Of a DNA stretch of 36,393 nucleotides, positions 5,586 through 36,114 are shown in pieces; the first letter of the stretch is position 1; every line of letters starts with the position of its first letter. The stretch is from Phlyctochytrium arcticum (Eukaryota > Chytridiomycota > Chytridiomycetes > Chytridiales > Chytridiaceae), in the NCBI GenBank assembly GCA_025602905.1, contig JAHLKI010000072.1:1-36393 (forward strand), given 5' to 3'. The position numbers and the translations under genes were made by a program. The notes beneath the pieces are model-generated. The model did not search any database, had not been told where the DNA came from, and saw only the letters and a list, made by a program, of their open reading frames with translations.

Positions 5586-6430
5586 TCAGATATCGCAATA
5601 CTCGGAGCAAATGTGACATAAAAGATGCTGACTTGATTCAATGTCAGTACTCATGAGGCAGGGGAGACCGCCGCACCCCCTTCCGAAGTTCAAAATCTTA
5701 TCAAACTTCACATGGTTCAGCTTGTTCAAGATCATTACTCGAGTACTCATGAAGCAGGGGTCTTGGGCCAGCTTTTTCAAAGTCATCCCTCTTGCCTGCC
5801 GGCGGCCCTCGCAGGGGCGCAAACACTGCGGAAGATATGAACTGTGATAAACCACGCAAGGAATCACCAATGGTCATTCAGTTCACAGCTTGAAGAGGAA
5901 TCCAAGGATGCCGATGCAATATGGGAAGCTGCACATTGGTATTTATCGTTGTTGCTTCTCTTTGTCCATTATCGTTTGTCCTTTGCCTCCCATCTGTAAC
6001 TTTTTGGGCTTCCTCTGTATTTCGTTTTTCTTCGTCTATTGTCTTTTGTGACGAGAGGGTAAACCATCGCTTCGCTCGGGTACAATGTAGGGAATTATTT
6101 TCATTTTGATCTTCACCAAATGAGGTGAAGAGACAGAAATAACAAAATGGAAATGTATCCGAGAAGAAGTGTCCGCACAGTGAATGACATTCAAGAGATC
6201 TGGCAAAAATGTAGGTATGATATACACCGATCCCTTCCTTGCTTGCCCATACAACTTGTGAATAGTAATTGCATAGGTGATGGATGTGCATGTTGAATAT
6301 CTTGACCCTGAATACTGCTCATCTTCACAGAGACCGGTGACAATATCTAAAAGTTGAGTATCGTTCTGAGAATTGTTTGAATTTGCCAATTTGTCCTTGC
6401 TGAAGACATGGTAGAATGTAACTGCTAAAA
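5586..6430. other. Unassigned region with a short direct repeat
   Basis: GTACTCATGAGGCAGGGG at 5647-5664 recurs with one mismatch at 5743-5760. Minus-strand open frames at 5878-6434 have no recognisable domain and overlap each other in two frames, so I do not call a gene. Confidence 0.4.
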
Positions 6431-7542: not shown

Positions 7543-8560
7543 TCAGTACTTTGTGTACCCTCCTTGTGCTTTGAGAACAGCTTCAACCCTCCTGGGCATG
7601 CTTTCAATCAGGTTCCGACAGACTGCAGCGGGTATGGCGTCCCACTTGGTCTGAATACGTTCCCAGAGTTCGTGAATAGAAGTGGGTGGGTTGGGGTGTT
7701 TTGCCAGTTGTTTTTTCAAGTGGGACCAGAGATGTTCGATTGGATTGAGGTCAGGGCTTTGGGCTGGCCACCACATGAGTGGAATGTTGTGCCTTTGGAA
7801 CCAACTCCTTGCAAGTCTACTAGTATGTTTGGGGTTGTTGTCTTGCTGAAATTCAATGTCCGCAGGAGAAATGTCGTAAAAATCCAGACTAGCCAGCAAA
7901 TCGTCCTCCAAAATTTCACAGTATAGTTGGGCATCCATCCGTCCATCAATCTTTGCGGCGTAGCCGGGCCTATCCCATGTCATACAACCCCAAACCATCA
8001 CTGAACCACCTCCAAACTTCAGTGTTCCTTCGACCGTGCGATCATTAAGCCCCTCCCCCTTCTTCTTCCACACCCAACTGCGACCATCCGACCCAAGGCG
8101 ATTGATTTTAGTCTCGTCAGACCAGACAACACGCTTCCAATCATCCACAGTCCAATTTTTGTGTGCAACAGCCCAATCCATCCTTGCCTTCCTGTGACGA
8201 GGTAAAAGTCGAGCCTTTTTCTGCTTCACTGCCGCCTTCAAACCGGCCTGCTTCAGCCCCCGACGAACTGTTGAAGGTGAAATAGCCTTGTTGGTAACAT
8301 CCTGAAGAACTTGAGCAACTTTGGGGGCCGTTTCAGCTTCACCAGATGTAATGAGAGAAACAGCTCGAGAAATAGTACGAGGTGTCAAGAGCTTTGGGCG
8401 TCCCCCCGACAATGAAGGCAGATCCGGAAGATTGTTGTGACTTGACGCGGGACACCGTGGCATGGCCTATCCCCAGGGAAGAGGCAATTTGTCGGGCAGA
8501 ATGGCCATGGGAAAGCTGAACCAGGATGCTGTTTTTGGCGTCTGGAGAAATTGGTCTCAT
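7543..8560 (-). pseudogene. Tc1-family transposase, frameshifted
   Basis: Starts at ATG 8560 with an N-terminal helix-turn-helix (MRPISPDAKNSILVQLSHG, then SARQIASSLGIGHATVSR). Around 8430-8445 the frame shifts. The downstream frame carries the second DNA-binding half (GGRPKLLTPRTISRAV) and the catalytic domain to a stop at 7543. The catalytic residues are D in VVWSDETKINRLGS, D in IEFQQDNNPKHTS and E in SPDLNPIEHLW. There are 34 residues between the second D and the E, i.e. DD34E. Total length about 340 aa is normal for the family. No intron signature explains the shift, so I treat it as an inactivating indel. Confidence 0.9.
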
Positions 8561-8885
8561 GGTGGTGGAAAAAGATGAAGAGGGAGAAAGTGAGGGCAGG
8601 GCGCGTTTAAATACTCCTGCGGGGCCAAGCCACGTCATGTGATCTCACGTGGCATTTGTTTTTGCATGCCAATGGCAAAACGTGCACATCTTGGGCAGGC
8701 GCTCCAAAACTGTCTCAATGACCAACCCACCTACACATGGCCCCTGCTCCCTGAAATTTGCATATCACATAAAATACTATTGATCAAACATCTTCCTCTG
8801 ATATTGCACAACACTTTTGGTCTAAGCAAGACCCCAATTTTACAAGGTACTTCTAGAGAAATTCATGCATACTTCAAAATTTACA

Positions 8886-17423: not shown

Positions 17424-17602
17424 GGTTTTGGAACTTTTGGCAGTTGTAAATTAACATTGAGGGATATAAACTCTTATTAAGTACAAAATGGGTTAATTGG
17501 ACCAAAAAACTCGACTCGGGTGCAGACTTGGGTTTGGGTTGTTGTTTCTTGAATACTTTGCTCAAGGATACTCAAAAAGACACGACTTCAACGAATCACA
17601 AA

Positions 17603-18714
17603 ATGACCACTGCACTTGGGAGACTCCCAGCAATCGCCGAAGGACAGATATATGGATCGATGGACGACGCAATTAATGCCGCACGCGAACATGCAAGGGA
17701 AAATCTGACATCATTCAAGGTGGCAGAGCAAAACAAGCAACGAGCCTACTTGAAATGCAAGGGGACGGACTGTAGCGCTTACATCAGAATCCAGTGTTCC
17801 CTCCGAACCCAGCAGATTGTCGTGAGCAGATTCTATGATGTTCACAGTTGTCAGGGATCCCTCGGCAAGGCACGCTCCAGTCAAACAGATCATGAATACC
17901 TGCTGGCACTTATTGAGGCCAGATTTCCTGTGAATAAGGACACCAAGGTCAAAAGTGTCCAAGAATTCTTCCAACTTCAGCTCGGATTGACTGTACCGTA
18001 TACCACCGCTCACAAGGCATTAGAAGCAGTATTGAATGAGACAGCCGAGGATGAAAGAAAGCAGTTCACACTTATTAATTTGTACGTTCAGAATCTCACA
18101 CATGCGGACCCTCTGGCCATTGTCAAATTGAACACACAAGCGGTCACAAGGCAAGATCCAAACGTACGTCGGTTCCACAGTATTTTCATCGCTACGGGTG
18201 CGGCCCGGAATGCTTTTCAACACATGCGGAAGTTTGTAGCCATTGATGGTACCTTCACAAAGAGCCGCTTTATCCAGACGTTGCTATTGGCGGTGGGTAT
18301 GGATGCAAATGATAACCTTTTGATCCTGGCGTGGGCTGTTGTACCGAGCGAATCTGAGGATACCCGGACTTGGTTCTTGACGGCCATGAAAGAAGCACAC
18401 CCCTATGTCGACTCTACAAGTTGTGTTGTGATTAACGATCGGGAGAAAGGTCTCATCAATGCAGTTGCCTCCGTCTTACCCGATACTTTCAATGCATTCT
18501 GCTGCTGGCATATTGCTTCCAACGTGCAGACCAAATTCGGCTTGGCCGCTAAACAGTACGTCTCTGTTTCTTCATGGCTCCGTGGTGACAAACTGAGCTA
18601 ATTTTGACTTCATTTTCATTCTGTAAGCAAATTTTGGCAGTGTGCGTATACGGACACACGAACTGCGGCGGGCTCGTGGTTTGATGAGCATTGACCGCAC
18701 GACTGCGCTAAGGC
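17603..18714 (+). pseudogene. Mutator-like (MULE) transposase, 3' truncated
   Basis: ATG at 17603. The N-terminal part resembles the FAR1/WRKY-type DNA-binding domain of MULE transposases (AYLKCKGTDCSAYIRIQCS, then VVSRFYDVHSC). The MULE catalytic domain follows: FVAIDGTFTKSRF (first Asp), SCVVINDREKGLINAV (second Asp) and the C-x-x-H motif in CCWHIASNV. An intron at 18556-18627 (GTACGT...TGTAAG, 72 nt) joins the frame to KFWQCAYTDTRTAAGSWFDEH, which hits TGA at 18691-18693. The copia LTR starts at 18715. The third acidic residue and the C-terminus are missing, so this is a non-functional 5' part of a gene of normally 600 or more residues. A 51-bp piece of its end recurs at 27889. Confidence 0.85.
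18664..18714. repeat. 51-bp direct repeat, left copy
   Basis: Identical to 27889-27939. It ends exactly where the copia LTR begins. Confidence 0.95.
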
Positions 18715-18878
18715 TGTTGAAAATCGGTACTAGGTACAGTAGTCATTAAAGGGAAAGGGTATACATGAGATGCCTTATGTAGGTTTCAGTCCCCAATCTA
18801 TCCTAAACAAATGTGGTTCTGCGGCCTATGGCCGAATAGCGCAGCATTGGATGTGGCTGTGAATCCTGAATCCTAACA
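18715..18878 (-). repeat. Copia 3' LTR
   Basis: The first ~117 bp align with 23349-23465 with few differences. TGTT...AACA ends and the adjacent polypurine tract on the minus strand set the inner border. The border could be 18880 instead. Confidence 0.8.
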
Positions 18879-19426
18879 CACCCCCGCACGGCTACAGTCC
18901 AATGCTTTGAGGATAATGTGTCGGTCCAGTAGTTGAAATCGTTCTTGAGTTGTTCTCAGAAATCGAAGAATAAATACTGTCTTTCAGGTTGAAGTTGTTT
19001 GACTGAAGTCGTGCCCCCCTTGTCCTTCTTTAAGCCGGGTGTATCCACAACTCTCCGCATCGGTCCACCCATCATTTGTGAGCTGCAGAATCGTGTTCTA
19101 GTATCGCGCAATGTCAGTCTCGATGATGTTTGTGGCCGTGTGGTAGATGTTGTTCCGCTCTAGATAGGATCGAGTAGTGCTCCGCTCCGCCTTCATGGAT
19201 GACAAAGGTCGTTGCACTGTCTTTCAGATTCGATGACAAGTGTCGTTGCACTGCCTTTCAAGTTCGATGACAAGTGTCGTTGCACTGTGTTTCAAGTTCG
19301 ATGACAAGTGTCGTTGCACTGTCTTTCAAGTTCGATAAATTGTTGAAGAATATTTCTTTGTTGAACAGATACAGATTTGTGATCTTGATTCAAAGCTATA
19401 CATAAATTCGTTACTGCTAATGCTAA
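18879..19426 (-). other. Copia 3' untranslated region
   Basis: Noncoding between the pol stop (19427) and the LTR. It contains the 34-bp tandem repeat. Confidence 0.6.
19198..19335. repeat. 34-bp tandem repeat, about four copies
   Basis: The unit contains GATGACAAGTGTCGTTGCAC followed by TGTCTTTCAAGTTC. Copies begin at about 19198 (diverged), 19231, 19265 and 19299. Copies are adjacent with no spacers. Confidence 0.9.
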
Positions 19427-22425
19427 TCATAATTCGACAAGTCCTATGCAACGCCTTAACTTTTGAAATTGCCCAATAGGGAGAGGTTTGGTAAAAATGT
19501 CCGCGATGTTGTCGTTTGTTGGAACATGCTGAAGTGTAACATTTTTTGTCTCAACCGCCTGTCGTATGAAATGGTGTTGACTATCCATATGCTTTGTCCT
19601 CGAATGGTTGATGGGATTCTTAGCTAAGCGTTCGGCTGGTTCATTATCGATCATAATTGCTGAGGGTGCTTTTGGCGGGAGGTTGATCTGAGACAATATT
19701 TGCCGGAACCAGTAAGCTTCTTTTGTAGCCTGCGTTGCAGCCATGAATTCCGCCTCGGTAGAGGATAATGCCACGGAAACTTGACGCTTGCTCTGCCACA
19801 ACAAGCAGTTTGTCATTTGGTAGTCCGAAGAAATGTCTCCCAAAAAGAACACGTAACCAGTCCTTGATCGCCTTGTTTCCTTGTCTGACGCCAATCCGAG
19901 TCGCAATACCCAAGGACAGACCGAATCGCGGAAGGATCTAATTTGCTGAAGCTTAAACCGAGATTTCGTGTCCGCTTCAAATATCTCAAAATGCGAACTA
20001 CAGAACGCCAATCGCCGACTGTGGGTGAAGCCATTTTCTGAGCAGCGACAGAAACGGAATATGCGATATCTGGTCTTGTACTGGTCATAGCATACATTAG
20101 TGCTCCGATTGTCTCCCTGTATGGCGTGTCTGCGGGAGCCGGTTGCATATCTTCTTTAGTTGGTGGTGGTGCTGAGGCTAAAGCCGGTGTGTCGTGCGTA
20201 CTTCGAGCATTGAGCCGAGGACCGAGATATCTTTCCAAGAAGGTGTCAATGTAACCTCGTTGATCCAGCGTGAATCCAGAGGCCGTTCTTGTCACCGTTA
20301 TGCCCAGTATGTAGTGAACTGGCCCGCTGTCGGTCATTTTGAACTCTGCAGTCAGTTGGGCTTTCACCCCTGCAAGGACAGCCTTTGGGGCAGCAACCAA
20401 AATGTCGTCCACATAGACAACTAAGAGCACGGCCGGTACCCCGTTTTCCAGCTTGACATAGAGAGATGGATCCGCTTGACTGGCAATGTATCCGATAGAC
20501 AGCAAATACTTGTGAAGGCGACGGTTCCACTCGCGCGGCGCTTGTTTTAGGCCATAAATGCATCGTTTGAGACGGCACACAAATCCAGGAGGAGCCTCTA
20601 TACCATCGGGAACCGTCATGTAAACTTCTTCCTGCAGGAGCCCGTTGAGAAAAGCGGTGACTACATCCATTTGGTCAACATCAAAACCCAAAATCAACGA
20701 AAGCGCCAAGACAAATCGTAAGGTCTGGATTTTGACAACGGGCGAAAATGTTTCCACGAAGTCAATGCCGTATTCTTGTTCAAAGCCGCGAGCCACGACT
20801 CGGCCTTTGTGTCGCGATATTTGTCGATTCGCGTTACGTTTCCTCTTGAAAACCCATCGACAAGAAATAATGCGCCGGCCCTTAGGTCGAGGAACTAATT
20901 CCCAGGTGTCGTTCTCGATTAAGGAGTCCAGCTCCGATTTGACGGCCGCTTGCCATTGTTCAGCTTCCGGATTTGTAGGAGCAACCGCAGAAGCGTATGT
21001 CTTTGGTTCAGGGGTTTCGTCCACCAGCGAGAGCAGTTGTTCAATTTGATCTACAGAGTGAAGTTCCTGCAGGTCTTCGCGTCGGACAATTGCTGGAGAG
21101 ATGAATTTGAAGTCGCGAGTCACTTCAACTTTCTTGGTGGCTTCATCCAGAACGTAAATACCGTCCTGTCGTGGGGCGTACCCGAGAAAACGGCCTCGTT
21201 GCGCGCGTGGTGTGAATTTCTTGAGATCGATTCCGGCGGATTGATAATACAGAAAGCTGCCAAAGGTGTGGAATCGAGTTAGGTCCGGTTTCGTTCCATG
21301 GAAGGCCTCGTATGGAGTGATGCACTTGGGAAGAGCGGAATGTGGGCGAGCGTTGTATAACTCGCAGGCATATGTTGCGGCGTACGACCAAAATTCATGC
21401 GGGAGGTCACTGGCGTGGTGTAAGAGACAACGAACGATGGTCATGATGGACCGATTGAAGCGTTCGACTACTCCGTTCTGCTGGGAGGTGTCGGTCAATG
21501 TCTGCTCGTGACGGATGTATTTCTCTTCAAGGGTTTTCTTCCAGAGTCCGTTGTTGTATTCTTTGCCACCGTCGGTCCTTAATATCATGATTTTTCCATC
21601 CTTGGGAGCGACCACATCCGTATAGTAGGAAATAAGTGCGCTGTGGGTTTGCTCCTGTGTCTTGTGCGTTAAGGGAGCCACGAACGCATATCGAGAGTGT
21701 CTGTCGACAAAAGATATCAGACATTTGTGGGGCCCAGGTGTACTTCGTGGAGGGAAAACTAGGTCTGATTGGACAACTTGCAGGTTGCCTGATGTCTCGC
21801 GCTCCGCGATGCCAAACGGTTTCTGGGATAGTTTTGCCTGCGCACACACAAGGCAATCCGCTTGCTCAGGAATGCTGGTAGGGTCAATATCCGGTAGATT
21901 AAGACCTTGGTCAATCATGCAAAGTAGTGATTTTTTGCTGACATGTCCGAGACGAGTGTGTACTTCGGTAAAGGTTGTGAGGGCCATAGCTGTCTCAATT
22001 GTGGGGGCTGCCGTTGTCGTAGGTAGTGGATAAGTGCCCGCATCGTCCATCGGGTAAGAGGCGAGTTGATAAGAATCCAAGATCTGTTAAGCAAATTCTG
22101 GCAGAAAGGATTTGGCATCAAGAAGTATGGCAGCACGGTTGGTGAATAACGTAAAAATGCCTGCTCTGGCAAGTTTTGAGACGGAGATCAGGCGTGCACC
22201 CAGTTCGTTGGATTGTAAGGTGGTGGGCAGATTTACAATGTTTTTGGTGCCCGGAAGAGTAAGGGTGAGGTCGCCCTCTAAGCATTTTTGAACAATTTGA
22301 TTATTACTGACACGAATGCGTTTACAGGATGTTTTTAGGTTTGTTAAATCACTTTTAAAATCGTAGTTGCGCCAGAATCCAGAAGCCATGGTTGTGTAAC
22401 GTCTGTGGAGCAGCCATGTAGTCAA
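19427..22425 (-). pseudogene. Copia pol (protease, integrase, RT, RNase H), broken
   Basis: The protease Asp motif WLLDSGAT sits at about 22380 in a different frame from both gag and the following protease body (SVSKLARAGIFTL), so at least two shifts lie there. An in-frame TAA (22089-22087) separates protease from integrase. Integrase follows: the GAG-pre-integrase zinc motif (HTRLGH...CLVCAQAK), the catalytic VQSDLVFPP and RTDGGKEY, then NGVVERFNRS. The copia RT has RRIISCRWVFKRK, QMDVVTAFLNG and the LLVVYVDDIL active site. After GYCDSDW (about 19930) the frame shifts again. RNase H (RTGYVFFLGD, VALSSTEAEFMAA, IDNEPAERLAKNPINHSRTK) ends in a stop at 19427. Confidence 0.92.
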
Positions 22426-23646: not shown

Positions 23647-23791
23647 CCGTGAGAGTTTCGATCCTTTCACATAGTCACATCCTCCACGGCAGGAAGGCTA
23701 TTTGTTCAGGCGGACTTCTCCGGACCCAGCAAAACATTTCCCAACATTGAAATTTACCCAGACAACTCCCACCCGATCTCAAGATCTCAGG

Positions 23792-25651
23792 ATGGCCGAG
23801 GGGACTCAAGCGGTGACCTTCGAGCAGCTCCAGGCTTTGATGCAAGAGCAGCAGCAATCCTTGCTCAATTCTTTGAATCAGTCCGTACACGAGGCCATCA
23901 ACGCAGCCATCGCCCCCATTCGCCATGAAGTGCGTGATCTCGACGAAAGGATTATTGAGGTCGCTGGAAATCTCGCCGTTGTCCGCGACCATGTCGATAC
24001 TGTGCGTAGTGATCTCAGCTCGGTTCAGATATCTCAGCAGCAGCAGCAATCCCAGCGTCGAAATGCCTTTCCTGAGGACCGCAACTCGGATCTCCCAACA
24101 CCTTTCACCGGCACCGGGCGTTACTTCCGCTGTTATCAATATAAAGGCCTGGCCGGCGAGGACGTTGATAGTTGGCTGATCTCAGTGGAAATGGATTTTC
24201 GAAAAGACCGTACCGCGCCGCAAGAACGACTTACCATCATCATGGATGCCCTGGACGGTATTGCTCGCACTTGGTATCTTAGCAAGATCAAACAACGAGA
24301 TGCGTATCTACTACGTCTCCACATGACTGTCGACACAATCAACGCGGCGGAACGCGTACGTATTGCCAGCACTGAACAGGATCCGTTGATCATTGACTGG
24401 GAAACCTTCGTTCGAGCGTTCAAACAGCGTTTTGTTCGTGTAAACAACGAGGAACATCTTTATGAAGCGCTTTTGACCTTGACGCATACCTTTGGACAAA
24501 TTGAAGATCATATCTACAAGTTCACTGCGTTAGAAGGGCAAATGAAGGATCTGCCCGAGACGCAAAACATTTACCTGTTCAAACGCAAGCTCGACATCGA
24601 GATCCGCCCCATTGTCGAACAACGCGACCCAAAAACCTTGAATGATGCTATTCGTTACGCCCAGTTGGCGGAGTTTTCGCTCAATCCCGCCGTTAATCGC
24701 GCCCCGTTGATCCCCACTATTCACACTGCGTATTCTTACAATCCTTCCTCCACTCGCGATCGGGACCTTCCAGCCCCTGTGTTTCCGCCTACAGACGTCC
24801 CCGTCCCACCCGCGGATCACATGGAAGTGGACCACCTTCGCCTTCAAGCTTTACGAAATCAGCCCAACCGTGACCGTACCCTGGAGACTTGTTGGTACTG
24901 TCAAAAGCCAGGTCACAAACTGTTTGAGTGCCGAAAGCGACGGAGTGACATCAAAGAAGGCAAACTCAAGCGTTGGACGCGCAAGCAGGGTGATTTCAAA
25001 CCTCGCCTGCATTTCATGATGGATGAGGCTGAAGATTCCGACGACGAAGGAGTCAACAACAACTCAGTTTTCTCTTACTTGCAGTACGATGAGACCACTA
25101 CCACCGTCACAAGTACTTCCAATGGACCCCGCGCGTTGGCGATTACCCCCGAAGCGACGCAAGTGGTTTTGGATACCTACCCTGTGCTTGATTACATGTT
25201 GCCTGCCGACCCGTTTCCAGCTGCTATGGTCAGTTACCCTTTGCCTTCAATCGGGAATTGTCGCAAAGAGCCCACCGCTGCGGAATGCCTCCAGGTCATT
25301 TCCCGCTCCACCAGCAACTCTCCACGCATGACTTTCGTTGGTTCTCTGACTTGTGGCGACGGCAGCCCCATCGCATGTAATTTTTTCATGGATAGCGGTG
25401 CGACTCACTGTTTCATTTCCGAGCGTTTTGCTAAGCTTGCCGGCATTGATATTACAGAGACCTCGGGTACGGTTACCCTTGGCGACGAACATACCGCGCA
25501 GTCCCGCGGCAGAGTCTCTGTCAACGTTGAATTTGCCGGATTCCGCGATCACCTGTTCGCCACTGTCCTCCCCTTCACGCATGCCGACGTTATTCTCGGT
25601 CTCAATTGGGCTAAACGGAACTATGTCACGACTAATAGTCAACCGGACTGA
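23792..25651 (+). CDS. Gypsy A Gag-protease
   Basis: ATG at 23792 (MAEGTQAVTFEQLQALMQEQ). The start is preceded by open frame but no earlier ATG. About 619 aa: an N-terminal coiled coil (about 1-90), then a retrotransposon gag capsid domain (GLAGEDVDSWLISVEMDF, ALDGIARTWYLSKI, EHLYEALLTLTHTFGQIEDH). A zinc knuckle, CWYCQKPGHKLFEC, and an aspartic protease follow (FFMDSGATHCFISERFAKL, then ADVILGLNWAKRN). The TGA at 25649-25651 falls between protease and RT, and the same frame continues afterwards without a break. Confidence 0.9.
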   Translation: MAEGTQAVTFEQLQALMQEQQQSLLNSLNQSVHEAINAAIAPIRHEVRDLDERIIEVAGNLAVVRDHVDTVRSDLSSVQISQQQQQSQRRNAFPEDRNSDLPTPFTGTGRYFRCYQYKGLAGEDVDSWLISVEMDFRKDRTAPQERLTIIMDALDGIARTWYLSKIKQRDAYLLRLHMTVDTINAAERVRIASTEQDPLIIDWETFVRAFKQRFVRVNNEEHLYEALLTLTHTFGQIEDHIYKFTALEGQMKDLPETQNIYLFKRKLDIEIRPIVEQRDPKTLNDAIRYAQLAEFSLNPAVNRAPLIPTIHTAYSYNPSSTRDRDLPAPVFPPTDVPVPPADHMEVDHLRLQALRNQPNRDRTLETCWYCQKPGHKLFECRKRRSDIKEGKLKRWTRKQGDFKPRLHFMMDEAEDSDDEGVNNNSVFSYLQYDETTTTVTSTSNGPRALAITPEATQVVLDTYPVLDYMLPADPFPAAMVSYPLPSIGNCRKEPTAAECLQVISRSTSNSPRMTFVGSLTCGDGSPIACNFFMDSGATHCFISERFAKLAGIDITETSGTVTLGDEHTAQSRGRVSVNVEFAGFRDHLFATVLPFTHADVILGLNWAKRNYVTTNSQPD

Positions 25652-27888
25652 GATGTTATTGTTTGGCCTGATGCTCGGACTGGCCGCCTTCACACGATCA
25701 CTATCCCTACCAATTCCTCAGCAGACCGTTCTTCGCGTCTACTTAGCATCGATCCACAGCGAAAACGTCCCGACTATGACGTCGCTCCACTGTACCTGTC
25801 CGCCAAGCAGTTTGACCATCTCTTGAAGCGCCAGCCGGATGAGTGTTATTTGGCGTTTGCCGTTTCCGACCGCCCAGCCGCTCCAGTATTACGTTTGCAG
25901 TCCTTGGTGACATCGGCCACAAACCAACTGTCCGGCCCCCCACCACAGCCGCTCAAATCCGCTGCCGGTCCCTCGCTGTCTTCTGATTCCTTCGATGCCA
26001 GCAAACTGCCTGAGGACCTGCGCCCCGTTGTCGGCAAGTACGAATCGCTTTTCGCTGACTTTAATGCTGTTCACCCACACGACCAGACGGACCAATTCAC
26101 GGTACGCATTTCGACAACCGATGACAGTCCCGTCCAGTCTACACCCCGCCGAGGAAGCCGAACTGCGCACCCAGCACGACCTCTTTTTGCGCGCTGGATT
26201 TATCAAGGAAGCCCCGCCGGATTGTGAATAGGCATCTCCCATCCTGTTTGCTAAGAAGCCGGGTGGTGCAGGATTGCGCTTGTGTATCGATTATCGCGCG
26301 CTGAACAAGAAGACAATCCGGGACCGTTTTCCTATTCCGCACATCGGTCGTATCCTCTCAGCTTTACAGGGCGCACAAGTTTTCACGTCGCTCGACCAGC
26401 AGAAAGCGTTTTATCGTTTGCTCATGGATCCTGAAAGTCGTTTGAAGACTGCATTTACCACGCCATTGGGAAACTACTATTGGTTGGTCCTTCCCTTCGG
26501 TCTGACCAACGGCCCTTCCTCCTGTCAACGATTCATAAATGCCGCACTGAAGGATATTCTGGGGACATTTGTCTTTGCGTACCTCGATGATATTCTTATT
26601 TTTAGCGGATCTCTGACCGAACACGTGGTTCATGTAGAGGAAGTGCTGTCCCGCCTCGCTGCAGCTAAGGTGCATCTACGTTTCGAGAAGTGTAAATGGG
26701 CCCAAGCTTCCTTGAAATATCTAGGTTTCATCATCGAACATAGTGGAATCAAACCCGACCCAGAAAAAATTGCAGTCATAAAGGCACTGCCCACCCCGAC
26801 CTCTTTGTCCGACTTGCAATCATTTTTGTGGATGTGCGTTTACTTTCTGCACCATATTAAGGATTTCCCTCGTCTCGCCGCCCCATTGTACGAAGCCACT
26901 AAGGGTGGTCGCCTGGTCTGGACGCCGCAACAGGATTCCGCTTTTCATTCCCTTAAAACGGCTTTGAGCACTGCCCCCGTCCTGGCCCATCCAGATTTTT
27001 CCCGGCCATTCATTGTTGATGCTGATGCCTCCGACTGGGCCCTCGGTTGCGCTCTCCTTCAGCGCAACGCTCAAGATCAAGAACACGTAATCGCTTATCA
27101 TTCCCGGAAGCTCAATGCCCACGAACGAAATTACCCCATTCACGAGAAGGAGCTGCTGGCGATTATTCATTCTCTTGGCATCTGGAGACACTACCTTGAA
27201 GGCCCGACTTTTCTGATTCGTACGGATCACAAATCGTTGGAACACTTACTAACCCAGAAAATTCTCTCCCGCCGCATGGCTAGATGGGTCATGGTCCTCA
27301 CCGAGTACGATTATGTGATCCAATACCGCAAGGGTAGTCAGCAAAAAATCGCCGATGCCCTCTCACACCTACTCTGGAAAACTTGACTCGCCGAAAAAAT
27401 TGGAACTGGCCCCCCGCTTGAGCGCTCTGCAAGACAACCCTGGCAACAAACCCCCATCCCCGCCATCCTGGGAATCTGAGTGGCCTGAGTTGATCCAGCA
27501 AGTCTTACTCCAGGCCCGCCTCAGTACGGGACAAGTTGACTACCAACGTGCCAAGCAGTATATTCGCCATCTGCCCGTCGAGGAGTCTATTTGCAATACT
27601 TGCAGTGCTAAAGTGGAACGTTTCTCTCTCGACGCGGATGATTGTCTCCTCTTTAACGACACACCATATGTCCCTCTGGCTTGCCGTGCCGACACAATCG
27701 TGAAATTCCACAAGGACCTTGGCCACTTGGGTGGTAAAGGGTTACGTGATATTATATCGGCTCGTGTCTAGTGGCCAGGACTGCCCGACTCGCTGCGATC
27801 TATTACGAAATTTTGTCCCAAGTGTCAGGTTCGCGCCCCTCGCAACCTAACGGCTAACGCCCCGCTTCACCCTTTGACCCGCCCCGCA
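25652..27888 (+). pseudogene. Gypsy A pol (RT, RNase H, partial integrase), broken
   Basis: Continues in the gag frame after TGA (DVIVWPDARTGRLHTITIPT). A shift near 26140 leads to LHPAEEAELRTQHDLFLRAG, then a TAG at 26229-26231 inside the pre-RT segment. RT has LRLCIDYRALNKKTI, FTSLDQQKAFYRLLMD and the FAYLDDILIF active site. RNase H has IVDADASDWALGCALLQ and the tail LIRTDHKSLEHLL. Another shift near 27370 leads to the integrase zinc region (FHKDLGHLGGKGLRDII, TAG at 27769-27771, then KFCPKCQV). The integrase catalytic core is missing. The element cannot transpose by itself. Confidence 0.9.
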
Positions 27889-27939
27889 TGCGGCGGGCTC
27901 GTGGTTTGATGAGCATTGACCGCACGACTGCGCTAAGGC
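27889..27939. repeat. 51-bp direct repeat, right copy (MULE sequence)
   Basis: Identical to 18664-18714. It joins gypsy A on the left and probably continues as MULE or other host sequence to 27950. Confidence 0.95.
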
Positions 27940-27950
27940 GCATCGTCACG

Positions 27951-28114
27951 TGTATATTTCTTGTTTTCTTCTGTATATCATTCCCTTGCACTGTACATTT
28001 TACTCTTCACGCTTTTTCTCTTCCTCTGCGCTAAAGCTAATAACACTACCCCGACTCTCGCACCCTGGGAAGGTGCATTACTGTCCATACCAACTCTTAA
28101 CCGAAAACGCTACA
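27951..28114 (+). repeat. Gypsy C 5' LTR
   Basis: 164 bp from TGTATATTTC to CGCTACA (TGTA...TACA ends), similar in size to the gypsy A LTR. The borders are inferred from the TG/CA ends and the adjacent primer site. There is no second LTR copy to confirm them. Confidence 0.55.
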
Positions 28115-28125
28115 TAGTAGCACCA
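28115..28125 (+). promoter_or_regulatory. Gypsy C primer-binding site
   Basis: TAGTAGCACCA. It differs at one base from TGGTAGCACCA of gypsy A, so both probably use the same tRNA primer. Confidence 0.5.
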
Positions 28126-28194
28126 ACCCTAACCCTCTTCGACCTACTAACCTCAACTCTATTTTCAACTTAACCTTATTCTTACTTCTTCACC

Positions 28195-29058
28195 ATGGGT
28201 TCTGGATCCAAGAAGAGCAGCCGCAAGCCCACCAAGGTTTCCGAGGACAGCCCTGTCAGGAGCGAATTGTCCTCCAAACCTATGGATGGAGCAAACTCGG
28301 ACGTTGAGGAGGGACAGCATTCCGCTGCCTCCGACTCCGAGCAAGAAAACCCTCTCGCTAGAGATAGCAGCGAGCAGGGCCGTCCCAGCGCTAGAGATAG
28401 CGGCGCTGAGGGCAACAACAAGGGAGAGGACGGCGGTGTCGTACCTATGGAGGTCGACAAGCCTACCCCCCAAGAACCTTCCGGCGGTGCAACGTTGTCC
28501 CTTTCGGGCAACGCTCACCCTGCTGGCCAGGTTCTCGGAGGAACTCCCTTTGTTGCGACCAACACCGGCCCGGACGTTGAAAGACTCGAAACCCTCACGC
28601 AAGAGGTTGAACAACTGAAGCGGTTGATTTCGAAGGCGGGCGTCCCCCTAGATGGTAGTTTCTTTCAAAACTCCATGCTGAACTCTATGCAGCGCGGGGC
28701 GGATGAGGCCACTTTCAATGGCGACGGCACGGACGAGGATGCCCACAAGAGAATTCGGGACTTTTTGGACCGACACTTTCTCTTTTTGGACAACTCAACC
28801 GATAATGCCGACCAGCAATACGGCCGCAAGTGTGTTGAGTACCTCAAAGGCTTTCTTGAGGGCACGGCCAATGCTTGGTTCAAGTCCTTGACCTTCGCCA
28901 ACGAGCCCAAGACCCGCGACAAGTTTGTGTCGATGTTGCGCGAGTGATTTGAGGCTCATAACTCCCGCGATGGCATTGTGGCGAAGTTGAATCAGCTTGC
29001 CTGTGACAACTATGCCGCCTTTCTGTCTGGCTTCAACCGGTTGACCAGAGAACTGAGG
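28195..29058 (+). pseudogene. Gypsy C Gag, nonsense-mutated and truncated
   Basis: ATG at 28195 (MGSGSKKSSRKPTKVSEDSP). A long acidic, Ser-rich N-terminal tail is followed by a short coiled coil (VERLETLTQEVEQLKRLIS) and a gag capsid domain (CVEYLKGFLEGTANAWFKSL). The frame stops at TGA 28945-28947 but continues in frame as FEAHNSRDGIVAKLNQLA and SGFNRLTRELRW. That matches the usual capsid continuation, so the TGA probably replaced TGG (Trp). The gene is then cut by the LTR of gypsy B at 29059. Confidence 0.8.
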
Positions 29059-29277
29059 TGGCAGTATAGTCAGAGTAGGTATGTATTAGCTGGGCAGTAA
29101 GAGGGTGTCCCGGGGAGGACTATACAAGAGGTAGGGAAGTGGCGTGGGTATGGCGCAGGGCCAAGCCACATCCAGGACATGCCCCCATACAAATAGGAAA
29201 GGGAGGTCATAATACAACATAACAGGGAAGGGGATAAAGGACACAAGAATACGCCGAGAATACGCAGTAGTAAGCCA
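29059..29277 (-). repeat. Gypsy B 3' LTR
   Basis: About 219 bp, TGGCAGTATAG...AAGCCA on the plus strand. It shares TGGATGTGGCTTGGCC-like and CTGCGCCATACC segments with the gypsy A LTR. The borders are inferred from TG/CA, the end of gag on one side and the end of integrase on the other. Confidence 0.6.
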
Positions 29278-29283
29278 TCGAAA

Positions 29284-30131
29284 CTATACCGGATTGTTGC
29301 TATTGTCGCTCTTCTCCGTCTTTGGTTGATAGACCCAGGGGACTTGGCCTTGCAGCAGTCGTTGCAGCTCTCCATCAGCAAGGTTCGCCCGGCGCAACTG
29401 ATTAACATGATATTGAGCCTTCAACTGCTGTCCAGCGAGGTCCTTGAGGACGTAAGAATCGGGGAAGGTGCCGGGGCCGACGACAATGACAGGACCGTAG
29501 CAATTGACTTGAAACTTTTTGGGCTTGGGGACTTCAATAGTTTCCGGGAGTGATATGCGACCACACGTTCTAACCCTTTTGCGTCCACTTGAAGCAATGC
29601 GCAACCGAGAGCCCAGTCAGAGGCATCGGTGTCCACGATGAACTGTTTGGTAAAATCTGGATGAGCTAACACCGGTGCGGTCGTCAGGGCAGTCTTAAGT
29701 TCGTGGAAAGCTAAATCCTGTTGCGTAGTCCAAAGGAGGCGAGAACCCTTAGTAGCCTCATAAAGGGGAGCGGCGAGTTGGGCAAAGTTTGTTATGTGCT
29801 GAAGGAAATAGACGCACATGCCTAGGAAAGTTTGAAGCTCGCCAAGAGTGGTCGGGGGAGGGATAGCCTCACTCGCTGCGATCTTGGATGGGTCAGGTTT
29901 AATCCCATGAGACTCAACAATAAATCCAAGATATTTCAACGATGGTTGGGCCCATTTACACTCTTTGAAGCAAAGGTGGACTTTGGCTGCTTCGAGTCTT
30001 TGCAAAACGAGATCAACGTGCTGGAGGTGTTCTTCCATGGAGTTGCTCAAAATAAGTATGTCATCCAGGTACGCAAAAGCAAACTTTCCAATCAGATCGC
30101 CCAGGGCATGGTCGATAACAGTGTGCCACAT
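29284..30131 (-). pseudogene. Gypsy B pol fragment (RT, RNase H, integrase C-terminus)
   Basis: From 30131 it reads the RT from just before the active site (GKFAFAYLDDILILSNSMEE), the connection domain (CVYFLQHITNFAQLAAPLYE) and the start of RNase H (VDTDASDWALGCALLQ). After AYHSRKL it jumps, with a frame change near 29550, to a C-terminal integrase segment (FQVNCYGPVIVVGPGTFPDS, then QYHVNQLRRANL) that ends at a stop near 29284. The rest of RNase H and nearly all of integrase were deleted. Translation of a normal product is impossible. Confidence 0.88.
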
Positions 30132-30380
30132 ACTGCGCAGACCTCTTCACGCATGTTCCCATCTGCAAGCGCGTCGCGTGTTTCTTGGTATACTCTTGTG
30201 ATGGTGTCCTTGGCTATTGGGCCCAGTATGGGATGTTGCTCCATCTCCACTAATTCTGCAGCCGTGTAGAACTGCGGATGATGTCGGTCTGCTGGCGTCT
30301 GTCGTTGCCTTCTTCTGGCTTCATTTCTGCGGCCCCGTTGTTCTTTTGTCCTGCGTTCTTGCGCAGCAGTTTGTATGCTG
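30132..30380 (-). CDS. ORF fragment with CxxC motif, possibly Helitron-like
   Basis: A continuous minus-strand frame reads a basic segment (RRTKEQRGRRNEARRRQRQT), then HHPQFYTAAELVEMEQHP and MREEVCAVCGTLLS. It ends in a stop just inside the gypsy B junction. A basic N-terminus followed by a C-x-x-C finger resembles the start of some fungal Helitron Rep-helicase proteins. The fragment is far too short to prove it. It is transcribed away from the gene at 31604, so 30.4-31.6 kb would be a shared upstream region. Confidence 0.3.
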
Positions 30381-31603
30381 AAACCGGCTCTGTATTACAT
30401 ATTAATATCTCACTTAATACATATGCGTTTTCTCATACGCAAGGGTTGTGACGCTGTGCATGTAGGCGTCGCATGCTTATTGCCGCCGGCGTACTTGCTC
30501 GCGGCATGGTGTTGTGGTTGGTCCTGTTGCTTTGCTGTTCGTTGTTTACTGGGGTGTCGCTGGGGGTGTCGGGGGGGACGCGTGATGCGGATTTCACTGG
30601 CAAGAGTCTTGTACTTTGTGTCGTTCTTCTAGCTGGCCCCCTGATCTCAAATACGCTTGTGGGTTCTGTATTCTCTTTCCACAAAGGAGTTGATGCCGTT
30701 TTAACTTAACCTTTTGACGGCTAACCGTTTTGGACGTCATTTAAGTTTACGACTAACTTTGCCCCCGCCTAACCGAATCTGATATTTCCCATTATTCATT
30801 TGTTTTTGTGCGAGACCTTGTTCTGGCTTTCCCGTTACATAGTACATACTCCTTCTAAATAATGGACATGTTCTCCTTTCGCCCCCTGTGTTTTTCAACT
30901 TGCTTTCCCCCTCCGCTTGCCATGTTCTGCGTTGTTGCTTTTCATTCAACTACGACTTCATGCCGTTTACGCTTAACCTTGTTAATGACTTTCCGTTCTG
31001 AGTTCATTCAGGTTTGCGGCTGACTTGGCCGCTGCCTTGCGTTAATTTTGGAGTTACGTTAACGCTTCCCTTTCCACACATACATGCATTCCTCATCACA
31101 CATATCCTTCTTACTTCCTTTCAAGTTGACTCTCGCCGTTGAAGGTTGACCGCTCTTCTTTCCACTACGGAGGCAACTAGCCGCTTTACACTTACTGTTG
31201 GACGGTGGCCGCCTGTGCTTCCGCGTCCCGTTCCATTTGAGCTTCTCTCCCCTTACGCCCCGTTTTTCGCACGCTTCTGGACGCTTGCCTCTACTCCTGA
31301 GTTCAATCGAATATACGCGTATCCTTTCTCCGCTCAGCGTTCCTCAATCGTTCCTAATAGGTTGCCGCTTCTCTTTCTGCTGCCCGCTTTGTTGTGTATG
31401 AGGTCTGCCCTTTCACGTAATTACGCCATATTTCTAAGTCCTTGCCCTGTCCTGCCTGCCACCTATAAAAAGGTCGCTGCCCGTCGGACAACCCACAACA
31501 ACATCCCTCTGTTACACCCACTGCACATCCCTGCTTCAGCATCTTCCACTCTCTCTTGCTTCCTCCAACCACCCTTGCAACCCCCCCACCCCCCTTCTTC
31601 TCC
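30381..31603. other. Long pyrimidine-rich upstream region
   Basis: No gene. The plus strand is C/T-rich from about 30690 to 31600. Two imperfect ~80-bp direct repeats start at ATGCCGTTTTAACTTAACC (about 30691) and ATGCCGTTTACGCTTAACC (about 30960). A TATA box lies at 31464. It looks like the promoter and leader of the gene at 31604. Confidence 0.55.
31464..31470 (+). promoter_or_regulatory. TATA box of the OB-like gene
   Basis: TATAAAA within ACCTATAAAAAGG, 140 bp before the ATG, followed by CAACCCACAACAAC. This is a plausible transcription start 30-35 bp downstream. Confidence 0.55.
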
Positions 31604-32514
31604 ATGCTTGTCATCACCTCTGCCGTGAAGGTGCTGTCCATCGTCAGCAACGACCACAAGAAATGGGACGTTATTCTCGCCGGACCCACCGCCGATGGGG
31701 CTTTCGTCGAGCTTCCCGCAAGCGTTTGGGTGAAGCCTAACCGGATTGTCGAACCTGAGGAGGACGGGGGGTACTTCTGCGTTGCTGCTATTATGGATGC
31801 TAAGTCGAGTGACCTTCAAGTTTACACCTTTCAACCTCTCCCAGACTGGACTGAACCCTGCCCTGCCCAAGTCTCCCTAACAGGCATCATTTCCACTGTT
31901 CAAGAAGACTCCGCCAAATTGGGCTACCGTGTTTATCGGGACGGCGTGGAAGTCCATCGTTCAGTTAACATCACCCGTCCAGGTGGATGGAAAACCCGGC
32001 GTTCCGTTCTCGTCAAAGGTGCTGTCTTGGAAGTCGTGGGTGAACTGCTCTCCCTGGACGAGGTGGAGCCGGTGCTACCGCTAGGCTCCCTACCATCACT
32101 AGTGCCGCTAGCACCTCCCGTGCCCAAGTCTGGGGGCGCAAGCCGCAATCAGCAGCTGACAGCCCTGTGAGGAAACATCGTTCTGCCGGTTGTGACTCTG
32201 CAACAGCACTGGATAGCTCCGCCACGTTCTCCTCGCCCTCCTCATCCTACTCGTACCCTTCCAGATCGCCCGAACCAAGCCGCTCGCCACCAGCGAAATT
32301 GCCTGCTCTAAGCGCGAACGGGAAACGTCGAGGCCGCCCACCCAAAGCCAAACCCGCGGAAGAAGCGCATCTTGCTCCCTCCAAAAAAACTCGACTGTCG
32401 CCGCCGGCACCGCCCACCACGCGAGTGGTCGAGTTAAGCGACAACGACTCAATCTCCGATGACGGCGTGCCCTATAAGAGCAAACGTTCCCTATTGCGAA
32501 CGTACTTGGAGTAG
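31604..32514 (+). pseudogene. OB-fold-like / AT-hook protein, frameshifted
   Basis: ATG at 31604 after a CT-rich leader. The first ~150 residues contain VSLTGIISTVQEDSAKLGY, VNITRPGGWKTRRSV and VKGAVLEVVGELLSL. This beta-rich pattern is like the OB-fold-type proteins that recur in fungal mobile elements; the inference comes from pattern only. The frame stops at 32170, but the overlapping frame is open from at least 32050 to 32514. It is rich in Ser/Pro/Ala with an AT-hook core, GKRRGRPPKAKP, and an acidic tail (VVELSDNDSISDDG). A single indel between about 32045 and 32100 would join them into a ~303-aa protein. Two overlapping products or an unseen intron are alternatives. Confidence 0.5.
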
Positions 32515-32808
32515 GATTATTGTCCCTGTATATAATGTAGATAGTCTTATTTTTCTTCCTGTCTTGATTTCATGAACGGTTCTTGTGTATTTTCCTTTTG
32601 AATTGATGTTGTCTGCCAATATGTCTTCTGCGGCTCTAACTATCCTTATGCGCGTGGTGTCTTCCCCTACTCCATGAGTCCAATCTGCTACTCGGACACG
32701 CTAAACTGCTTTGCTTGCCCATTATATACCAGAGCTAATCCCCGCAACTTCGTCCGGGGCTACTGTTCCTATAACTATAATTCCAAGCTACATGTTAAAC
32801 GAGAAACG
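32515..32808. other. Transition into AT-rich block
   Basis: No convincing gene. Composition shifts from about 50 percent GC to AT-rich. The left border of the methyltransferase element should lie here, but I see no terminal repeat or target duplication. Confidence 0.4.
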
Positions 32809-33108
32809 ATGTACTCAAGAGGGAGCGATTACAATTTTGAAATGCCCCTTGAGGCAGTTCACGCTCTATTAGTTCAGGACTTTCATAGAATACAAAAGAT
32901 TGACGAAAAGAAGGAGTATATCTTGGATATAAAAAAATTGGCAGATGTTGAACAAGACACGATCAAATACTTGGAGCTATGCATAAAACTGGATGAACTG
33001 AGGGTAAAATACAAGGAAAGCTTCAAAAAGAGAAGGTCAAAACGAAACAAGTGTTTGTCACGGACGACAAGCAGGATGATTAGTCGACCCGCATTCACAT
33101 ACGGGTAA
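32809..33108 (+). CDS. Small basic, helical protein
   Basis: A 99-aa intact frame from ATG 32809 (MYSRGSDYNFEMPLEAVHAL). The frame is open upstream, but this start fits the beginning of charged helical sequence. Predicted helices (ADVEQDTIKYLELCIKLDEL) are followed by a very basic segment, FKKRRSKRNK, suggesting nucleic-acid binding. No family recognised. It lies 84 bp upstream of the methyltransferase on the same strand, in the same AT-rich block, so it probably belongs to the same element. It has no lesion, unlike its neighbours. Confidence 0.45.
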   Translation: MYSRGSDYNFEMPLEAVHALLVQDFHRIQKIDEKKEYILDIKKLADVEQDTIKYLELCIKLDELRVKYKESFKKRRSKRNKCLSRTTSRMISRPAFTYG

Positions 33109-33123
33109 AATAGGGGTCGGACC

Positions 33124-33139
33124 TGTCTCAATTGAGACA
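33124..33139. repeat. 16-bp perfect palindrome
   Basis: TGTCTCAATTGAGACA between the small ORF and the methyltransferase ATG (33193). It is a possible operator or recombinase site. Half of it resembles the core of the Tc1 ends, probably by chance. Confidence 0.7.
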
Positions 33140-33192
33140 CTCATTGTTTTTTCACATCTTTACAATAAAGGAACACACGAACCACGTGACAA

Positions 33193-34190
33193 ATGCTCAA
33201 GGTAGCAACAGACTGCTCCGGCCTTGAATGTCCACTAGTAGCTTTACAGAACCTCGGAGTGGAATATATTCATCAATGGAGCTCTGATATAGACAAGAAT
33301 TGCCGCAAAATGATAGCAGCAAACCACCAACCCAAGCTGATATTTGAAGATATCACAACTCGAGACTTACAAGATTTGCCTGAAATAGACTTGTATGTAG
33401 CTGGATTCCCCTGCCAACCATATTCATCTCTGCGGCACATGGGAAAGAAGACAAAGAGGATCCTAGAAAAGATGTTGCCGCACACTGTATCGCGACGATT
33501 CTCCATACAAAACCGGCAGCATTCTTGTTGGAAAATGTCCCCCTCCTTGTGTCATATGACAAAGGACAGACCTTTGCGGATATTCTAGCAGCTTTAAATA
33601 AAACCAATGAATATACCATATCACATTCCGTATTGAACACAATGCATTACGGAATCCCGTAACACCGGAGACAATTGTATATCGTTGGAATTCGCAAGGA
33701 TCAAGAGAACCGGATATTCAAGTTTCTCACACCCCATGATACAATACCCAAACTCAGTGAATTCTTGAAACTAAGAGATCGCCATGAATATCAACCAGAA
33801 AGATATTCTTCTAGACTCATAGCGCGAATGCCTGATGATCATACTGAGAAATGTTATACTGTCAAACACCGCGGGGGAAATGGCCGATATGTGGAATGTT
33901 CCCCATGTATTACAACAAACACTAGCATATTCCTCACACAATACAATAGAGACCTTAGTACCTTGGAGAAACTTGAGTTACAAGGATTTAACAAAGATCA
34001 GATGAATATAGTTGTTTCGGATTGGATACAAGCAAAACAGGTGGGAAATGCAATGAGTGTCAATGTGTTACAAGCCATATTCGTCGAGATATTTGCATCA
34101 ATGGGAAGTTATATATACAAGAACTATCTGAAATATTACATCTTATTGTCCTCAGAGAATCTGAATGCATCAATAGCATTATTCTTATAA
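33193..34190 (+). pseudogene. C5-cytosine DNA methyltransferase, broken
   Basis: ATG at 33193. About 332 codons, the length of a stand-alone (bacterial/viral-type) C5 enzyme, with no regulatory domains of host DNMTs. Motif I, the S-adenosylmethionine site, is ATDCSGLECPLVALQNLG. Motif IV with the catalytic Cys is GFPCQPYS. A one-base shift at about 33441-33450 moves to the frame with HCIATIL and motif VI, LLENV. Motif VIII, GIP-x-HRRQLYIVGIRKD, contains TAA at 33660-33662 where Gln (CAA) is usual. The target-recognition part follows, then motif X, QVGNAMSVNVLQ. The enzyme would transfer a methyl group to cytosine C5. It is now inactive. Genes of this type occur in viruses, mobile elements and restriction systems. 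Confidence 0.88.
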
Positions 34191-34289
34191 ACCGCGGGCC
34201 AAAATGCGCCTATTTTAACTTATTGCACTTAAGTAAAGCCCCATGGATACAGTATCTTAAAATACCTCAAGACTTTTGCCGCGTCCTGA

Positions 34290-35561
34290 TATGGTACGGG
34301 CGAAAAGCTTGCAACATTATCTAGTGATAACCCCGTTGAACCAAAGATTCTATTTGAGTTAATCTTCGCAAATGTACCGTACTTGCCACAAACACTCAGA
34401 GAATATGTGATTAGCCAAATCGAGTCACGTGATTTGGCTGAATTGGCAGAATCAGAAAAAGTTGATTTGGCTGATTCAGAAGAATCATATGACTCGGACA
34501 ATGACATGAATATCGAGGCACCACCAGAACCAGAACCATTGAAGATTACCAAGGACTTTGTTATGGAAAAGTTTCAAGCTGCCATCATAGCAAAACCAGA
34601 ATCAAAAGGAACACTAGTCACAAACAAGAACAGAATGCTCAACAAGTTTATGCCACATTTCAAACTGGACCAGAATATTGACTATGACACTATTGAGGGT
34701 GAATGTTATGAATATCTGGAGAATTCAATGGTTCGTGGACCTCTTGAAAGGATTCAAAGCGTTTTTCAATCTTCTTACAGAAGAAGAGAGACACAAATTG
34801 ATTGAGGATAACGACAAGATGTTTGGTACAAAAACTGGACAACTCATCACATTCCTCAACAAACAAATTAGAAGCGCAGAGACAGAGCAAGAATTCAGCA
34901 AGAAACATCTGAACAATATGTTCCATATGACGAATTATGGACCCGAGTTGATACCAAATTGAACACCTTAGACAAGACAAATATTCAAGAGATACAAAAA
35001 GGAATCGTTCTCTCATTATATGTCCACTATCTGCCCCGTCGCAACCCATATGCAACTCTGACTTATCGGACCGGTCTAAACTCATATTCAAATGGTGTCA
35101 TTACTTTGCGGGATTACAAGACTCACAACGTATATGGGGACTTTAAATTCAATGTAATGACATTACAATTGACTTGATTGAGACTTATCATTCACTAGCG
35201 GGTGACATGGCTATATTTCCAGAACATCAAGATCTTCAAAGTGGAGCTCATTTGTCGCATCAATATTCAAGGAGATTATAGATGTTCCATTGACCTTGAC
35301 AAACTTGCACAAAATTTCATTTGCTGGAATGTCAAAGAGGGACGTTTGAAGTTTATGAAGGAAAAGATTGAACTAGCCGATGCCATGGGTCATTCCGTCA
35401 CAGCACAAACCAGGGCCTACACCTATCGAACAGAGACCACTGAGGAAACAAATACGCGGAAGGTCTGGGATCAAGATGAGATCGAACGTTTGAGAGATCT
35501 TAGTGCTGAATATGATTCTTTGGCGCCAGAAGAGAAAACAGTATCGAAGGAAGCTTTATAA
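34290..35561 (+). pseudogene. Tyrosine recombinase (integrase)-like gene, multiply frameshifted
   Basis: Successive plus-strand frames read as one protein of about 420 aa. First is an acidic N-terminal region (LAESEKVDLADSEESYDSDN). A helical segment (FNLLTEEERHKLIEDNDKMF) is reached by a shift in the T-run at about 34763. The catalytic-like region comes after another shift near 34950: SLYVHYLPRRNPYATLTY (Arg box), ITLRDYKTHNVYGDF (Lys in the beta-hairpin), LIETYHSLAGDMAIFPE, NFICWNVKEGR, and ELADAMGHSVTAQTRAYTY (late His and candidate Tyr). The R-R-N-x-Y-A and YKT-x-x-x-YG pattern recalls recombinases of polinton-like viruses, virophages and related eukaryotic elements. The second catalytic Arg is not evident. 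At least three shifts make it dead. Confidence 0.55.
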
Positions 35562-36114
35562 CAGTAAACAGGGACGGATGACTCGCTAGTTCAGGGGATG
35601 TGTAATGAGTAGAAGTAATCCTATTGCTCAAGGTCAGAGGCCGGTTATCATGTACAGAGGGGATGAGGCAGAGCCTCGCTTTTATAGTGTTTCTACAACA
35701 ATTCCTACTTAAGGAAGGGGGATTGCAATGGGGCATCTTGGCACCCTACTTCTGCCAACCTTCCTTTCCTTGCCTTGGCATCTTTTCTGCCACAGTGTTC
35801 TCGACCAGGCCCCATGTCTATGCGTGCGGTCTTTCTACTGGAGGGAGTGAGATAGCCGCTAGGCCGCATCTCTGGCCACGCGCGACGCGTCCTGGCAGCT
35901 TAGCTTGCTGACACATTGGTTCGAGAGCGCGCTGGGAGGAATGTCCGAGAAATGCCTAAGTCCCCTCGCTCACTACTGACACTACCCAACTACAAGGTTA
36001 TCCTACAAGAGCATATATACAAAGATTGGAGCTGAGAACCGGGGGGGTACGATGGGACTATTTACAAGACAAACAGATGACTATCTGTTACAGATGCCGT
36101 GCGCTATGGGTCGA
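35562..36114. other. Gene-free stretch near the right end
   Basis: Composition returns to about 50 percent GC at about 35.7 kb, which may mark the right border of the AT-rich element. No terminal repeat matching 32.5-32.8 kb was found by eye. A TATA-like ATATATAC lies near 36015. Nothing else seen. Confidence 0.4.

Follow-up and report, generated by a model that had tools for sequence, protein, structure and literature searches.

The inserted cassette and its genes

The window analysed here is a 36,393-nucleotide stretch of the chytrid fungus Phlyctochytrium arcticum (GenBank assembly GCA_025602905.1, contig JAHLKI010000072.1, positions 1 to 36,393 of the forward strand). Near its right end lies an AT-rich cassette of three same-strand genes, a small basic open reading frame (ORF), a C5 DNA methyltransferase and a tyrosine-recombinase-like gene, which is very probably a fragment of a dead polinton-like virus (PLV), a small integrating double-stranded DNA virus (Table 1). 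Below, C-numbers denote contigs of the assembly (the window contig is C72) and L-numbers denote extracted loci.

The GC fraction of 32768-35556 is 0.397 versus 0.486 for window positions 1-32767, in agreement with a first-pass annotation of the window that had called the composition AT-rich and unlike the flanks. The limits proposed there (32515..35561) are replaced by two sharp borders: the cassette starts at 32768, with a repeat before it, and the recombinase gene is cut at about 35556 by a long terminal repeat (LTR). Copies of the left repeat, 97% identical, are found on C4 (near 1,403-1,406k) and C3 (near 521-524k); both stop at the same base as 32767 and continue into unrelated sequence. 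On the right, a relative on contig C5 has a recombinase gene that extends beyond the point where the window becomes LTR, so the stop codon at 35559-35561 is LTR-derived. The small ORF was likewise only partly as annotated. The frame at 32602-33108 is chimeric, with 55-56 N-terminal residues contributed by the flanking repeat, and only its 3' part belongs to the inserted piece; 32764-32937 is 98% identical to C3:494818-494991, near weak matches to further viral genes on C3.

The methyltransferase assignment holds, with PF00145 matched in all three reading-frame pieces (1.3e-13, 2.9e-15 and 3.5e-8). A six-frame search of the genome recovers the gene in two parts (49.5 and 98 bits), with one internal TAA in the higher-scoring match. 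The motifs PCQ, ENV, Q-R-R and GN can be seen in the sequence (their motif numbers are presumed here), and a profile search against solved structures places the family nearest to HhaI-type enzymes. In a tree of 41 rows, including 29 homologues drawn from 120 listed of 1,280 and rooted for drawing only, the two window pieces form a group (100/99) together with three metagenomic proteins and seven P. arcticum copies, five of which have a recombinase or D12 gene nearby. A host-type methyltransferase gene on C16, which adjoins an ORF weakly matching BAH (24 bits; cut-off 30.8), falls outside this group, on a very long branch whose placement the tree program flagged as unsure. The window pieces do not group with this host-type gene. 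Branching inside the host fungal DNA methyltransferases, together with a recombinase profile score no better than random, is what the first-pass annotation had named as contradicting its reading; the recombinase, though without a PF00589 match, has the expected fold in its modelled relatives.

The recombinase boxes, an Arg box (PRR), a Lys box (YKT..YG) and a late GH...Y box, lie in separate frames. The gene is homologous to an intact 487-amino-acid protein (E 2.4e-13; 2.5e-33 for a duplicate copy on C3). The modelled catalytic part of this family has the recombinase fold, with the set of active-site residues (Arg, Lys, Arg, His/Trp and Tyr) that is characteristic of the superfamily. Protein searches following up the recombinase, which scored only the 7,989 or 7,997 candidates with most words in common, found just three proteins, two of them from P. 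arcticum and the third metagenomic. Searches of Pfam, PHROGs and PDB sequences gave no usable recombinase match, the best being a PHROG 'integrase' at 0.035 for one of four members.

The duplicate on C3 bears on how the decay of these genes should be read. From 24086 onward C72 is near-identical to C3, with nine differences across 12.3 kb, all located from 34906 on and eight of them one-base indels. Four one-base indels are inside the recombinase gene (34906-35308), and the C3 copy has a longer open frame of 315 amino acids. Some recombinase frameshifts in C72 are probably contig-end errors, and assembly noise may account for part of the apparent decay. The breaks in the methyltransferase are identical in the two copies, which show zero differences before 34906. 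About 20 kb from the C3 duplicate, C3:494.8-500.9k (partly L033) holds the small-ORF sequence together with weak DEAD-helicase and Prim-Pol matches; these viral-type pieces and the duplicate are perhaps one original insertion split by other elements.

Table 1. Features at and around the cassette, in window coordinates
Feature	Position	Strand	Basis
Very probable endogenous PLV remnant, truncated on both sides	32768..35556 (2,789 bp)	+	junctions with repeat and LTR; GC
Small basic ORF, 3' part, within inserted piece	32770..33108	+	frame map; similarity to C3
Perfect 14-bp palindrome GTCTCAATTGAGAC	33125..33138	.	just upstream of methyltransferase
C5 DNA methyltransferase pseudogene	33190..34190	+	frameshift near 33.45 kb; in-frame TAA 33660-33662
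Tyrosine-recombinase-like pseudogene, 3' end lost	34290..35556	+	homology to intact relative; fold model
Terminal part of repeated element abutting virus fragment	30118..32767	+	copies on C4, C3
Solo LTR of Ty3-type retrotransposon, cutting off recombinase gene	35557..36092	-	match to LTRs of element on contig C5

The palindrome is a possible promoter or operator. It occurs in 6 of 43 loci, four of them copies of the window locus (window or C3) and two the relatives on contigs C5 and C4, where it lies inside stop-to-stop frames of 505 and 351 amino acids, respectively; the former matches Dam weakly (18.2 bits; cut-off 28.1). A Pfam scan of the left repeat gave no match. The solo LTR matches the LTRs of a two-LTR element at about C5:1135444-1141927, whose interior encodes Ty3-type RNase H and integrase domains. 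No target duplication is seen flanking the window LTR, so a deletion may be involved there. Farther left, 17450-22086 and 23675-30146 contain a MULE transposase, a Ty1-type polyprotein and two oppositely oriented Ty3-type pieces.

Related gene clusters and a complete provirus

The recombinase has 16 matches in the genome, representing 15 places, two of which are the window copy and the C3 duplicate. Each of the 13 other places has an rve-integrase match at a distance of 5 to about 195 bp, convergent on the opposite strand. A packaging ATPase and a putative capsid gene are in the cluster at 12 of the 13 (the exception is on contig C5), and a C5 methyltransferase at five. Some of the 13 may be duplicate contigs, as with C72 and C3, so that not all are independent insertions. 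In the gene map, rows are given for 16 of 16 recombinase, 45 of 58 putative-capsid, 41 of 51 ATPase, 42 of 105 rve, 14 of 35 DEAD-helicase, 19 of 34 Prim-Pol and 9 of 9 D12 matches, with 16 C5 methyltransferase matches merged into 13 rows; most omitted rows are short or weak, and the weak rve matches often cover just the chromodomain part.

Pfam identifies an rve integrase with a chromodomain, a Pox_A32-type ATPase and a Prim-Pol with D5_N in clusters on C45, C29 and contig C5, which further encode a Herpes_ori_bp-type DEAD helicase, a D12 methyltransferase and a fibre-like protein. Among the 20 cluster ORFs scanned there is no reverse transcriptase and no protein-primed PolB. The ATPase is of the A32/FtsK type (PF04665, 34 bits versus a cut-off of 22.8), with 51 genome matches including fragments. 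A conserved 420-amino-acid gene shares the cluster with it and has 58 matches, again including fragments; we infer that it encodes the capsid protein by position and conservation only. Of the viral hallmarks that the first-pass annotation had suggested looking for, the packaging ATPase is present, accompanied by this putative capsid gene. Of the integrase types by which PLVs are recognised, rve and tyrosine recombinase, the relatives have both, the former with Chromo and the latter by its modelled fold.

At L036:230-1690, a recombinase has a weak C-terminal Myb/SANT match below cut-off, and the adjoining integrase (L036:1697-2962) has a clear chromodomain; these are perhaps two chromatin-related modules side by side.

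One related cluster is a complete provirus of 27,048 bp, at C23:393495-420542 (ends in L124-L127). Its inverted ends are free of differences (100% identity) over the comparable length of at least 564 bp. Outermost in each lies a palindrome made up of a perfect 30-bp stem and a loop of five bases, which is also found closing off the C45 element on the right. GTTAC flanks the provirus on both sides as a 5-bp target duplication, which is what an rve integrase leaves (PMC12220804; this and the other papers are cited for the parts of them covered here). Because the duplication is of rve type, it is improbable that this element relied mainly on the recombinase for its insertion. Both its terminal inverted repeats and its size, within 14-40 kb, are those of PLVs.

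The 14-base motif ACGTTTAAGTGTAT, a possible replication element, has 18 exact matches in the genome (reversed control, 0), on C23, C45, C5, C4, C3, C1, C17, C6 and C46. It is found near the C23 and C45 provirus ends and, on contigs C5 and C4, flanks the DEAD-helicase gene in inverted pairs. An origin tied to the DEAD-helicase gene was considered and dropped, because the C23 provirus, which encodes Prim-Pol, has the motif at its ends as well. In L037, inverted repeats of about 257 bp (5432-5688 and 8479-8733; 92%) flank Prim-Pol, each with an internal inverted repeat.

Comparing elements reveals recent exchange of modules among P. arcticum proviruses. The C45a and C23 elements come close to being one virus, their recombinase, integrase and ATPase proteins being 100% identical and their methyltransferase blocks 99.9% identical over 2.9 kb, while their replication genes are unrelated, a DEAD helicase in C45a and a Prim-Pol in C23. 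L035 3076-7643 (DEAD helicase plus a 181-amino-acid ORF) and L043 110-4258 (Prim-Pol) hold such swapped replication modules, with flanks 99.2-100% identical. The C26 element has 2.5 kb of the methyltransferase block in common at 99.2%, but its recombinase is only 41% and its putative capsid protein 51% identical.

Beyond this genome, neither the recombinase nor the putative capsid protein had a relative in scans of viral contigs, and phage records gave no match. The methyltransferase scan of viral contigs took the best 80 of 100 loci; when 12 P. arcticum proteins were compared by phmmer with the ORFs of at least 60 amino acids in these, the one match was Prim-Pol in L044, a viral contig that encodes D5_N and a C5 methyltransferase (44% identity).

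Weighing the origin of the cassette

Of the two origins considered in the first-pass annotation, a fragment of an endogenised DNA virus and a new recombinase transposon that carries a methyltransferase, the viral one is supported by the relatives of both genes, which cluster with A32-type ATPase, rve-chromodomain integrase, replication and fibre-like genes, one such cluster being the 27-kb provirus with its terminal repeats and target duplication. Several observations weigh against assigning the cassette to a PLV. The window piece itself contains only the small ORF, methyltransferase and recombinase, with no capsid, ATPase or rve integrase gene; its membership rests on relatives, and it is the remnant of a PLV rather than a PLV. 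PF00589 matches neither the window recombinase pieces nor their intact relatives. The model is weak overall (mean predicted local distance difference test, pLDDT, 52); its core at 211-370 is mostly at pLDDT 68-89 and the Gly-His/Tyr stretch at 384-394 is low, and Foldseek with this model found no PDB match at 0.001 (best 0.06). For the 420-amino-acid protein, Pfam and PHROG give no match and PDB sequences none that is meaningful; both ends were examined in one provirus only (C23), and the case against a host origin, as judged from sequence, leans also on identity, the C16 row being long-branched and of odd composition.

The transposon reading would make the cassette an autonomous tyrosine-recombinase DNA transposon, Crypton-like, with a captured C5 methyltransferase. 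Cryptons are found in fungi (PMC12220804), and the window piece alone is indeed a methyltransferase and a recombinase with no reverse transcriptase, as the first-pass annotation had noted. Yet all 13 other recombinase places run into an rve gene and 12 into the ATPase and putative capsid genes, and the borders here are a repeat and an LTR, not the element's own ends, which makes such a transposon very improbable. The chance that the piece comes from a giant virus (Nucleocytoviricota) is slighter still. Best matches of the recombinase model in a viral structure library are mostly giant-virus proteins, and giant-virus genes are reported from three fungi (PMC5294986), but a Qinghai Lake virophage protein is likewise among those matches, and the one complete relative measured, with its 27 kb, inverted repeats and 5-bp duplication, has PLV size and content. 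Least credible of all is a remnant of a DIRS/Ngaro-type retrotransposon with recombinase, reverse transcriptase and methyltransferase. DIRS elements do couple a recombinase with a methyltransferase, but reverse transcriptase is absent from the window piece and the scanned cluster ORFs, rve integrase and ATPase are present, and the cluster methyltransferases are, by family assignment, PF00145 and D12 enzymes.

For a PLV origin, the following course can be proposed. Fuller relatives would have a linear genome of about 27 kb with inverted repeats ending in hairpin-forming palindromes. Insertion, with the 5-bp duplication seen at one element, would be the work of the rve integrase, and the A32-type ATPase would package the genome into a presumed capsid, as gene content suggests. 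Methylation by the C5 and N6 enzymes probably protects the viral DNA from nucleases or from silencing. For the tyrosine recombinase, whose gene always adjoins that of the integrase, a second recombination job is more probable than primary insertion; candidates are resolving replicated ends or multimers and exchanging modules. After insertion, other mobile elements and deletions would have stripped the piece on either side, and the two genes left behind would have decayed. It is conceivable, if unlikely, that rve inserts the genome and the adjacent recombinase acts on the palindromic ends, by telomere-resolvase-like resolution or re-formation of hairpins, or in replication-module exchange. Telomere-resolvase structures are not among the 50 entries listed in the fold comparison, which is neutral for the resolvase idea. 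If true, this would be a new recombinase role in small eukaryotic DNA viruses.

Comparison with known systems

DNA viruses of fungi are scarcely known. In a search with few subscription journals we found no paper on P. arcticum viruses, and in the literature covered there is one named chytrid PLV, an integrated virus reported from Spizellomyces punctatus (PMC7805220). As described, that virus resembles the P. arcticum elements in being integrated in a chytrid; one element is reported for S. punctatus and 58 putative-capsid matches, including fragments and duplicate contigs, are counted here. Over half of the PLVs and virophages in that set have a DNA methyltransferase. Related loci are numerous in the P. 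arcticum genome, and in several of them every mapped gene has an open frame, which together with the identical ends of one element points to recent activity. The genome thereby provides a named chytrid in which to study double-integrase PLVs, palindromic ends and the swapping of replication genes.

A limited literature search found no hairpin-ended PLVs; hairpins in the parts of PMC12747079 covered are those of giant viruses, and the word is not used in PMC12220804. The mid-GC EMALE virophages of Cafeteria burkhardae (PMC8547959) also combine an rve integrase with a tyrosine recombinase, and primase/helicase genes are described as replaced between their types, much as in P. arcticum. EMALEs are virophages of a marine flagellate, and neither a C5 methyltransferase nor hairpin ends are mentioned in the parts of that paper covered. 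Polintons/Mavericks (PMC7805220, PMC12220804) have an rve integrase, packaging ATPase and inverted repeats in common with the P. arcticum elements, and a target duplication of 5-6 bp that compares with the 5 bp at C23; unlike them, the P. arcticum clusters have Prim-Pol/D5 or DEAD (Herpes_ori_bp-like) genes and, in the 20 ORFs, no protein-primed PolB. In the PLVs of Tyrannomonas regina flanked by terminal direct repeats (PMC12747079), a tyrosine recombinase and an rve-type integrase occur together, as in P. arcticum; the repeats at their ends are direct, whereas the C23 element has inverted repeats and a 5-bp duplication.
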